From assembly GCA_020355945.1 (NCBI GenBank), contig CP070627.1, positions 4,460,565-4,489,497 on the forward strand: 28,933 bases of DNA, in the 5' to 3' direction. The translations under genes were made by a program, and so were the position numbers. Below, one piece after another: positions 4,028-6,612 of the stretch (position 1 is the first letter of the stretch; each line of letters begins with the position of its first letter). The stretch comes from Candidatus Aminicenantota bacterium (GTDB taxonomy: Bacteria > Acidobacteriota > Aminicenantia > UBA2199). Below the pieces are notes generated by a model that saw only the letters and a program-made list of their open reading frames with translations, did no database searches and was not told the DNA's origin.

Positions 4028-4396
4028 TTAATCATAAAGGTATTTTTTTATCCTCTCTTTATCTTCATTTTCTTTGTCGCCTTTATAATAAATTTCAATA
4101 AATTCAATGATGTCCTCTTGCTCAAAATAGGCGTAAATAATTCTGATTCCTGATTTTGCTCCTTTGCCTTTCAAACTTTTGCAGGCAAATTTCTTTGCCT
4201 TAAAGATTACGGGGTATTCTTTTTTTAATCCCGGAATTTGTTTGATGCCGTCATTATCTTTTTTTATCTTATGAAATAATTTCAACTGGGTATTGATAAA
4301 TACCTTCAAATCCTCTTCCAGGGAACGAAACCGCTTTAGTAGTGTTTTAAGATCTTTCTTGAAATGAGACGTGTTTTTAATTTCATTAAAGGTCAT
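4028..4396 (-). CDS. RelE/ParE-superfamily toxin-like protein
   Basis: The 122-residue protein has the compact RelE fold pattern: an N-terminal helical hairpin (FKKDLKTLLKRFRSLEEDLKVF), a lysine-rich middle (FKAKKFACKSLKGKGAKSGIRIIYAYF) and a terminal strand-turn block (IIEFIEIYYKGDKENEDKERIKKYL). The SGIRIIYAYF...FIEIYYKGDKE pattern is characteristic of RelE-like mRNA interferases. It starts 1 nt after the stop of the upstream Panacea-domain gene and has no separate promoter, so antitoxin and toxin are co-transcribed with the antitoxin first. Toxicity and target are inferred from family and arrangement. Confidence 0.8.
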   Translation of the reverse strand: MTFNEIKNTSHFKKDLKTLLKRFRSLEEDLKVFINTQLKLFHKIKKDNDGIKQIPGLKKEYPVIFKAKKFACKSLKGKGAKSGIRIIYAYFEQEDIIEFIEIYYKGDKENEDKERIKKYLYD

Positions 4397-4397
4397 T

Positions 4398-5174
4398 TTA
4401 ATCTGTTCTTACCGAATAGGGTGCGGTTCGATAGAATACCGATTCATATTCGATGACAGCTTGCTCATCGGCGGTAAGCCAGGGTACGTCATCGTGGGAA
4501 TAGTGACTGATTTGAGCAGCGTTCATGTGAGAGAGCCTGTTTAACACATCATTAATGGTTTCAATTTCATTCGCTTTTAATTTGCTTAAATCCGATTCCC
4601 GCAGGGGCAGGTATTTGGTCTGGGGGTATTCAAAGTATTTGTTTTCCACCTTAATTATCTGTTGGGTGCGAATCATCTCCTCGACTATTGTCTTGAATTC
4701 CAGGGGAGTCGGCCCGTAGTAATTTTTTATATAAGTAGCCCCTATCAGTTGTTCTTCATACTTTTCATAAAAATCAAAATCAATAAAATATAAAAGTTTA
4801 TACAGTACGGTCTCACCGATATTGGGTTTTGAACCCACTTTATTTAAAATATAGAGCAGCACTTCTTTGAATTTTTCCATGTTTTTCCGGGGAACATTGA
4901 CCCGGATTTCTTCCCTGGGTTTTTGCATTGTCTCATCCCTGGTTACAATTATTTCGGGTTCTTTTTTTAAATCCAGTAATTGATCCACCGAGCAATTAAA
5001 AGTTTTGGAAATTTCCACCAATTCATGGCTTTTGAGTTCCCGTTTCCCGTTTTCTATTTGAGACAAAGAGGTCCTGGGAATTTTTAGAATTTGAGCCAAT
5101 TTTTCCTGGCTTATATTCATTTTTTCTCTTATTTTTTTTATTTTTGTTCCCAACTGGCGATTAAAATCATCCAT
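4398..5174 (-). CDS. XRE-HTH plus Panacea (DUF4065) antitoxin
   Basis: I start the gene at the ATG at 5174-5172 (258 residues) because it has GAAGGAG just upstream and a consensus promoter 22 nt further. The longer open frame reaches back into the group II intron. Residues about 8-62 form a Cro/C1-type helix-turn-helix (KKIREKMNISQEKLAQIL, RTSLSQIENGKRE). A linker follows, then a Panacea/SocA-like DUF4065 domain at about 100-225 (VLYKLLYFIDFDFYEKY, YYGPTPLEFKTIVEEMI, SHDDVPW). Panacea domains are known neutralising domains found with many unrelated toxins. The HTH probably represses the operon. The partner here is the RelE-like protein 1 nt downstream. Confidence 0.85.
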   Translation of the reverse strand: MDDFNRQLGTKIKKIREKMNISQEKLAQILKIPRTSLSQIENGKRELKSHELVEISKTFNCSVDQLLDLKKEPEIIVTRDETMQKPREEIRVNVPRKNMEKFKEVLLYILNKVGSKPNIGETVLYKLLYFIDFDFYEKYEEQLIGATYIKNYYGPTPLEFKTIVEEMIRTQQIIKVENKYFEYPQTKYLPLRESDLSKLKANEIETINDVLNRLSHMNAAQISHYSHDDVPWLTADEQAVIEYESVFYRTAPYSVRTD

Positions 5175-5195: not shown

Positions 5196-5224
5196 ATTAT
5201 AATATTTGTTTGAAAATATGTCAA
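5196..5224 (-). promoter_or_regulatory. Consensus sigma-70 promoter of the Panacea/RelE operon
   Basis: On the minus strand TTGACA (5224-5219) is followed by a 17-nt spacer and TATAAT (5201-5196), an exact consensus match at both boxes. Transcription should start near 5189, about 15 nt before the antitoxin ATG, with GAAGGAG in the short leader. So strong a promoter fits autorepression by the HTH antitoxin. Confidence 0.85.
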
Positions 5225-5296
5225 TAGTTTGTCGGCAAATAAAACATTTTTTCGCAGCCTGGAATTGATAATTTACTTTGCCATTTACTTGTCGCG

Positions 5297-5990
5297 GTAG
5301 GGATAGCCGGTTACCCGGCACCCGTGAAACATCCGCACAGATCCGTCCATAATCTTAATAGACTTTTTCTTGAGGTTTTCCCTCATCCGGCTCCCCGCTG
5401 ATGCTCACAAGAAGGACTCACCAACACTTCTTGATAGGAGGCTTAATCCTGTTTCCATTGCTACCCAGTTCTGAGACTGGAGTAATGTCTCCTTAAGCCT
5501 CTACACACCAGCGCATGCCGCCACTATCTTCGCTCCACGTAACAACGGCATTACCCTGCTTCATCACTACTATAAGCATGTCCGACTCCCTGCCGGGCAT
5601 TTCTACCTCCTTGCCTTTTCGGCTTGTTAGCAGATACTCCTTTCAGGAGACCTGGCAGTGTCTCCCAATAGTGGCGTTCCGACGCACTCCATTCGATGCG
5701 CCACTATGTGCCACTGTCTGAGACCGCCACTATCGGACAGAGCCCGATGACCCTTGCCACTAGCGGGTCACCGCGTTCTGCCTTCCAGCTAAATTAGGCT
5801 GTCGGCCTCCGCGATGACGACAATTTCGGGGCTTACAACATTCACTTGCGTTGCGGCCCAGCACCTCCTATCCACCGGCTCCATCAGCTTTGTTACCTCC
5901 ACCGATGCTGCTTCAGTAGCAGGCTGCTGGCTAAGCTTTACCTGCGTGGGACTCGAGCCCACTGGAATGCGCCAGCTTAGCCTGGCACAC
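5297..5990 (-). ncRNA. ORF-less group II intron (domain V interrupted)
   Basis: Read on the minus strand, the element begins GTGTG at 5990, matching the group II 5' consensus GUGYG. It then runs through about 600 nt of highly paired sequence, including complementary ATAGTGGCG/CGCCACTAT arms, and the phrase ACGCAAGTGAATGTTGTAAG. Domain V starts at 5393 with GAGCCGGATGAGGG and a GAAAA loop. Domain VI follows as a GCCGG-GTAA-CCGGC hairpin with an unpaired A at 5304, and the intron ends CTAC at 5297, so the A is 7 nt from the 3' end, the normal branch-point position. No reverse transcriptase is encoded. Domain V spans 54 nt (5393-5340) instead of about 34; the extra 20 nt at 5368-5349 and mismatches in its lower stem suggest a damaged or inactive copy. 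Confidence 0.75.
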
Positions 5991-6189
5991 AATTCACCTG
6001 TCCCACCAGGAAAATACCACAAGAATTAACCACAAAAGCCACAAAAAAAAGATGCAAAATTGCTATTCTGAATCACAAACGGTTAAAAAACTTTTATTCC
6101 CGCTGCTTTGGGATATCATGGTAATCCTGTAATCCTGTAAATCCCGGTTCAGACCCTTGCTGGAAATACTGGAAAAAAGTGAAAAGGTA
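5991..6189. other. Intergenic DNA upstream of the intron and of the DUF4160 operon
   Basis: This is AT-rich DNA with short CCACAA-type reiterations (about 6008-6045) and AATCCTGTAAATCC-like repeats (about 6122-6145). I see no protein-like frame or RNA gene in it. On the minus strand its start is the 5' exon of the group II intron. The rest of the gap up to 6339 holds the promoter and operator listed separately. Confidence 0.5.
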
Positions 6190-6339: not shown

Positions 6340-6612
6340 ATGCCGCCGGTTTCACATCCATTCAAAAAAGGTGCTCTTGTTGTACTGATGAATTATAATG
6401 ATCATGCCCCACCTCACGTTCATGTCAAATACCAGGATGATGTAAGAAATTACCGGTATGAGATCAGGGCCAAAAAATGGATGAAACCTGGCAAAAAGCT
6501 TCCACCCAGGTTAAGAAAAATGGTGGAAGCATGGGTGGATGCACATGAAGAAGAATTGTTGGAACAATGGGAAAATGCATTTAATAACAGACCTGTCAAA
6601 ATTGTAGGATAG
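6340..6612 (+). CDS. DUF4160 protein, probable toxin partner of a TA-like pair
   Basis: This 90-residue protein matches the DUF4160 pattern: an N-terminal strand (ALVVLMNYNDHAPPHVHVKYQDD) with the conserved H-PPH-H run, then a basic helix and a C-terminal acidic helix ending HEEELLEQWENAFNN. DUF4160 genes are commonly found directly upstream of DUF2442 genes as a toxin-antitoxin-like unit, as here (6-nt gap). GGAG sits 4 nt before the ATG and AGGAG further upstream at 6319. The biochemical activity of DUF4160 is not established; assignment as the toxin half rests on the pairing. Confidence 0.8.
   Translation: MPPVSHPFKKGALVVLMNYNDHAPPHVHVKYQDDVRNYRYEIRAKKWMKPGKKLPPRLRKMVEAWVDAHEEELLEQWENAFNNRPVKIVG

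Follow-up and report, generated by a model that had tools for sequence, protein, structure and literature searches.

The element that lies between a toxin–antitoxin operon and its divergent neighbour in this Candidatus Aminicenantota genome raises the question of whether a group II intron with a split domain V, and no reverse transcriptase (RT) of its own, still splices or survives as a relic. The window, which is the whole stretch of 28,933 nucleotides analysed here, had been described from its letters as holding a group II intron that has no ORF and whose domain V is interrupted. That description stands: domains I–IV match a covariance model, no RT is present and the two halves of domain V are 25 nt apart. 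The intron and its domain I–IV core are:

5291–5990, minus strand: whole RT-less group II intron, GTGTG ... CCGCGAC, 700 nt, identified by its RF02005 match, with the 3′ end taken from tandem copies and relatives
5726–5955, minus strand: domain I–IV core, the RF02005 match

RF02005 (group-II-D1D4-6, domains I–IV) matched the proposed minus-strand intron with 78.6 bits (E = 1.3e-20, cmscan), above the gathering score of 49. The covariance check was fruitful for domains I–IV but not for domain V, as RF00029 gave no match in the window even at E ≤ 10. This is a weak test that misses most of the intact relatives tested too: at the gathering score, 14 sources yielded one RF00029 match versus 12 for RF02005. 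We therefore dropped the missing RF00029 match as proof of a broken domain V. Both intron ends fit group II, with the anticipated GTGYG present as GTGTG at 5990 (GUGYG) and GAC at 5291 (AY). The paired interior noted previously was also borne out, since the 700-nt RNA (5990–5291) folds at −275.6 kcal/mol (z −5.3) and none of 20 shuffles was equally stable. An inverted repeat based on ATAGTGGC lies within the intron (5665–5736; 15-nt arms, 87% complementary). The element is a genuine group II intron on the minus strand. A chance resemblance might be argued from the silence of RF00029 and from our family model R1, built from 15 intact members (alignment A1), whose best of eight window matches covers domain VI only (14.5 bits, E 0.15); it is nevertheless hardly credible given the RF02005 E-value and the presence, in the correct order, of group II ends, an EBS1–IBS1 pairing and a domain VI motif.

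The limits of the intron needed correction at one end. The preliminary description had placed the 3′ end at a CTAC at 5297, with a bulged A 7 nt before it (5304) and a length near 694 nt. The true end is 5291 (...CCGCGAC), six bases further, which makes the intron 700 nt long, because CCCTACCGCGAC is common to the window and its relatives. The position is fixed by head-to-tail copies of the relative L044, where exact tandem copies with a period of 1909 bases (L044:6088-11814) read CCGCGAC followed directly by GTGCGCC. Copies of the L044 type at different sites differ in the bases after CGCGAC, and L002, L011, L016 and L017, found without the 3′ end in the query (by pattern, via the RT and, for the last two, by BLAST), all read CGCGAC before their sequences diverge; L153 ends in CGCGAT instead. 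The 72 viral-contig stretches (74 matches), whose search pattern joined the domain V 3′ strand to the domain VI end, including CCCTACCGCGAC, and 12 genome places had the 3′ end built into their patterns and so provide no independent test of it. Homologues, then, run past 5297 to CGCGAC or CGCGAT, so that this boundary moves while the one at 5990 holds and the intron stays. The branch A is probably 5298, in an unpaired UA ahead of CCGC in the family alignment, whereas the A at 5304 aligns with a paired column of the relatives (C-G in 10, U-A in five). This column pairing and the tandem L044 copies speak against both a 3′ end at 5297 and a branch A at 5304, which we rejected.

At the other end, the exon can be paired with the ribozyme:

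5991–5996, minus strand: IBS1, the last six 5′ exon bases, TGAATT; by reading, pairs at 6/6 positions (one G-U) with EBS1 AAUUUA
5786–5801, minus strand: EBS1 hairpin CAGC-CTAATTTA-GCTG, with EBS1 at 5795–5790, in the position of a loop of the RF02005 structure

The hairpin has a predicted pair probability of 0.78–0.83. The corresponding loop of L044, ACUGUU, pairs with that intron's own exon end, AACAGT, which supports the assignment in the window. The intron would have inserted by pairing of EBS1 with the exon, presumably through reverse splicing, and the pairing is still present.

The insertion sites of the wider family have a feature of their own. Of 50 upstream flanks, many of them near-copies, 44 show the CGCGAC-type intron of the viral contigs (L026-L097), which is also found on E. 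coli plasmids, directly behind CTG-N10-CAG and one further base. We take this motif to resemble the LexA (SOS) box. Our search for literature joining a group II intron with both the SOS box and LexA found none, and 28 papers mention a group II intron together with LexA; the accessible part of PMC3522654, which treats E. coli introns, mentions neither 'LexA' nor 'SOS'.

A tblastn search with the RTs of L021 and L019 detected none in the intron, in agreement with the initial claim, and its two weak matches (E 0.43 and 0.92) fall in the window outside the intron. Two segments mark the region concerned:

5547–5590, minus strand: segment just upstream of the RT-start position in L021, 44 bases, 89% identical to L021 and 86% to L022
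5438–5501, minus strand: domain IV segment at the position of the relatives' RT, with a possible 9-bp stem GAGGCTTAA/TTAAGCCTC

The stem has a pair probability of 0.52–0.63, and region 5394–5560 folded alone is no better than shuffles (z −0.23, 85/200). The RT gene of domain IV would have been lost here with a short segment left in place. The RT-less CGCGAC-type copies L023 (G098), L104, L101 and L002 (G001) have the same 3′ end and, by reading, the RT body is gone between its start and its last codons. Domain V is intact in L023, L104 and L101, unlike in the window, and L101 has also lost much of domain I. L002 resembles the window intron in that a hairpin interrupts its domain V at the bulge, but it is truncated by the contig end and its insert is a different one, a 19-nt palindrome.

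The active core of the window intron comprises the following elements:

5371–5393, minus strand: domain V 5′ half, with lower strand GAGCCGGA and upper stem TGAGG-GAAAA-CCTCA
5346–5370, minus strand: extra segment within domain V, 25 nt compared with four in 15 intact relatives
5340–5345, minus strand: domain V 3′ lower strand CGGATC; GGATC in 15/15 relatives of A1, mostly forced by the search pattern
5291–5336, minus strand: domain VI, with an extra ATGTTTCAC at 5332–5324 and the putative bulged A at 5298

The domain V halves, GAGCCGGATGAGGGAAAACCTCA and CGGATC, are separated by the 25 nt AGAAAAAGTCTATTAAGATTATGGA, so the interruption is as first described, with 21 rather than 20 extra nucleotides (25 versus 4). 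The unbroken domain V of some 34 nt that group II introns conserve is therefore missing here. A 6-bp hairpin, GTCTAT-loop-ATGGAC, occupies 5363–5345 (z −3.1, 3/200 shuffles; pair probability 0.81–0.87). The upper stem of domain V is predicted with a probability of 0.8–1.0, and the lower stem with 0.36–0.43, falling to 0.18 for the last pair. Between the upper stem and CGGATC the relatives have CG and two pairing bases; the window junction has neither this CG bulge nor the two pairing bases after it. The insert is single copy within the window. A pattern for the split domain V, whose letters were picked with the element already in view, has a single match in the window and none in 100 shuffles. 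Group II introns have a domain VI hairpin whose bulged A lies some 7–8 nt from the 3′ end. In the domain VI of the window intron, the basal stem GCGG/CCGC has a probability of 0.0 in the whole-intron fold and forms when 5345–5291 is folded alone; the apical hairpin (0.97–0.99) is well predicted and CCGCGAC follows A5298.

These structures were judged against A1, in which 15 of 17 distinct sequences were aligned, with the near-duplicates L034 and L101 left out, along with L076, which has no domain V 5′ strand. Covariation is seen in its domain V and VI helices, whose cells are 98.2% paired, compared with 83.0% in shuffles and 36–48% when slid, and 11 pairs changed on both sides (shuffles average 8.0; 11/500 reach 11). 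R1 scores 97.2, 90.8 and 90.7 bits on L023, L024 and L019, all three being training rows, and 51.1 on L002. The third domain V pair (A1 columns 3 and 32) is G-A, not G-U, in 15/15 sequences, which is largely forced, as A stands in most search patterns.

We consider it most likely, with a probability of roughly 60%, that this RT-less copy splices very poorly or no longer at all, because the catalytic bulge has been shifted from its place beside the lower stem; the window intron is probably dead or crippled. At some stage, some 21 bases that form a hairpin of their own would have been added to domain V at the bulge, and about nine to domain VI. Displacement of the bulge would then have abolished splicing or left it very poor, and the copy would persist as a relic between the divergent genes. 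This reading is favoured by irregularities in two parts of the active core, in domain V as well as in domain VI, and by the low predicted probability of the lower domain V stem. In its support, domain V has its normal length in 73 of the 74 family matches in viral contigs, many of which are identical copies, the sole exception being L076, and of the 12 CGCGAC-type domain Vs that a pattern search detected in 100 genomes of the phylum of G001, 11 are intact. Several observations point the other way. The insert is a tidy hairpin at the bulge, and the pieces of domain V can still be read around it, an outcome not required of random decay. Domains I–IV continue to give a good score, and none of the 20 shuffles matches the RNA in stability. 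Furthermore, genome G087 has two intron copies that share one domain V insert, and one of these has an open RT frame; an interrupted domain V is thus not necessarily fatal.

The last point leads to the alternative that the window intron is still active, its insert stacking out as a three-way junction so that the catalytic pieces pair, with an RT supplied in trans by another copy. The strongly predicted upper stem and insert hairpin would suit such a junction, and hairpins in domain V are seen in other introns (L002, L022 with its second copy L127, and probably L130), the L022 type being present in two copies of which one has the open RT frame. We nonetheless think activity unlikely, given the missing CG bulge and pairing bases, the low probability of the lower stem and the irregular domain VI. 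No second copy with the window's insert is known, and the inserts of L022 and L130 are near the domain V loop rather than at the bulge.

Over its 463-nt 5′ part the window intron is 49–51% identical to two L021-type introns and 45–47% identical to five CGCGAC-type introns (the L049 row in this comparison is an overlong cut). It looks like a separate lineage, since this part is about equally far from both types. Searches of plasmids, phages and viral contigs gave no match to a closer relative. Its likeness to L044, a CGCGAC-ended intron, lies in domains I–IV (RF02005 183–187 bits in L044), an EBS1 in the same loop and the same domain VI end CCCTACCGCGAC, although L044 has an RT and an uninterrupted domain V and is 1909 nt long. 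The L044-type intron is found in 240 records of an E. coli collection, mostly plasmids, and the eight rows listed are all annotated ltrA. L021-type and L022-type introns share with the window intron the 86–89% identical pre-RT segment, and L021 starts GTGCGCCAGGTTAAG; they differ in having a long domain VI, another 3′ end and open RT frames, and the L022 insert is at the domain V loop. L021 scores 56.1 bits with RF02005, and L128 42.0 bits with RF02003, below the cut-off. One could imagine a hybrid joined inside domain V, L021-like from the 5′ end to the domain V loop and CGCGAC-type thereafter, with filler between. This would account for the 44-base segment 89% like L021, the domain V loop GGGAAAAC common to the window and L021, and the domain VI end 97% identical to L023 and L025 over 33–34 bases, and its junction would coincide with the extra segment. 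We regard a hybrid as very unlikely, however, with the 5′ part about equally distant from both lineages and with L039 showing that the CGCGAC type can also have a GGGAAA loop. L025/L018 (G100:C144:1105-1146) is a stand-alone hairpin resembling the intron's domain VI, except that the complement of its 3′ end has taken the place of the 5′ side; it was found at one place in 100 genomes.

The surroundings of the intron are intergenic, upstream of a toxin–antitoxin operon as originally reported, and the antitoxin gene could be identified by its Panacea domain (PF13274):

4398–5174, minus strand: HTH and Panacea antitoxin gene (PF13274 E 8.5e-18, PF01381 E 3.3e-15)
4028–4396, minus strand: small gene following the antitoxin gene, presumed solely from its position to encode the toxin
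6340–6612, plus strand: DUF4160 gene (PF13711 E 1.1e-14), divergently oriented and separated from the operon by the intron
5196–5224, minus strand: perfect sigma-70 type promoter TTGACA-17-TATAAT (12/12 matches), between the intron and the antitoxin gene

The antitoxin start was taken as the ATG at 5174; the mechanical ORF begins at 5321, inside the intron. The small gene had no Pfam match. The perfect promoter is the one such site in the window, and 3/100 shuffles contain any. Because this match lies between the intron and the antitoxin start, the operon, with a predicted promoter downstream of the intron, need not depend on splicing. A weaker promoter-like site on the minus strand (6238–6211), one of six in 1301 bases compared with 2.0 in shuffles, could transcribe the intron.

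We also looked for split domain Vs elsewhere. Among the genome contigs the scan yielded one other case, L002 (genome G001). By reading, this copy has lost its RT and is truncated where its contig ends; CCTGCCTGCAGCAGGCAGG separates its bulge from its lower stem, an insert that six other pattern-found copies in G001 do not have. Speaking against a wider recurrence, the loop-insert pattern was absent from the viral contigs and the bulge pattern matched coding DNA only. The viral match L001 and the bulge-pattern matches L156-L159 are coding DNA and were judged chance, L152 is by reading not an intron, and L124, flagged as domain V-like by the script, was rejected on reading. CCTGCCTGCNGCAGGCAGG, a 19-nt palindrome dispersed over 39 places in nine of 100 genomes, lies in or beside domain V at:

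L002:188-206
L128 and L127 (G087:C212 and C102)
L130 (G087:C261)
L131 (G099:C32)

In 17 distinct contexts examined, the palindrome is clearly inside domain V in two (L002, and L022, whose context is shared by L127), probably inside in one (L130, by reading a third intron) and ahead of the 3′ domain V half in one (L118/L131). L111, L113 and L121 have it within a larger inverted repeat. L130, L127 and L131, which gave no Rfam match at E ≤ 0.01, are read as domain V from their sequence. The L022 copy of G087 contains an open RT frame of 474 aa, and L127 has the same insert with 96% identity over the last 194 bases and 86.5% over 415; no similarity was seen upstream of these 415 bases. A split domain V thus recurs, and one split form was probably copied after insertion. 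The genomes with L002, L022 and L130 probably belong to the Bipolaricaulota, because two of the 120 listed homologues of the L021-like RT, out of 7999 in all, carry the name Candidatus Bipolaricaulota (90% and 94% identity); one is from Deltaproteobacteria (68%).

A broader idea, which we hold to be distinctly unlikely, is that the bacterial domain V is a recurrent landing place for short hairpin inserts and that some introns with a three-way domain V still work. The window element would be one case, joined by L002, both copies of the L022 type and probably L130, these with the dispersed 19-nt palindrome. The preference might perhaps come from domain V forming a strong hairpin in single-stranded DNA. 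If this were true, such introns would escape searches that demand a standard domain V.

Large insertions in catalytic regions, a feature shared by the window intron, are known from degenerate organelle group II introns, according to the available portion of PMC4424553; those introns lie in needed genes with host splicing factors, whereas the window's is bacterial and intergenic. The same portion describes bacterial RT-less introns as rare and as nearly always found in genomes that also contain related introns, from which an RT may be supplied in trans; RT-less introns whose domain V is odd, it adds, could have been missed. A domain V survey with RF00029, as far as the accessible text of PMC8919778 describes it, used a bit score >24; it cannot be said to miss this family because that threshold is below the gathering score used here. 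Literature searches found nothing on group II introns in Aminicenantes and, for Bipolaricaulota and introns, nothing on group II introns judging by titles. No part of the group II ribozyme is more conserved than domain V, and it is through domain V that surveys find RT-less introns. The window element and L002 are RT-less introns with an odd domain V. Whether any intron of this kind still splices would indicate how far the active site can be altered.
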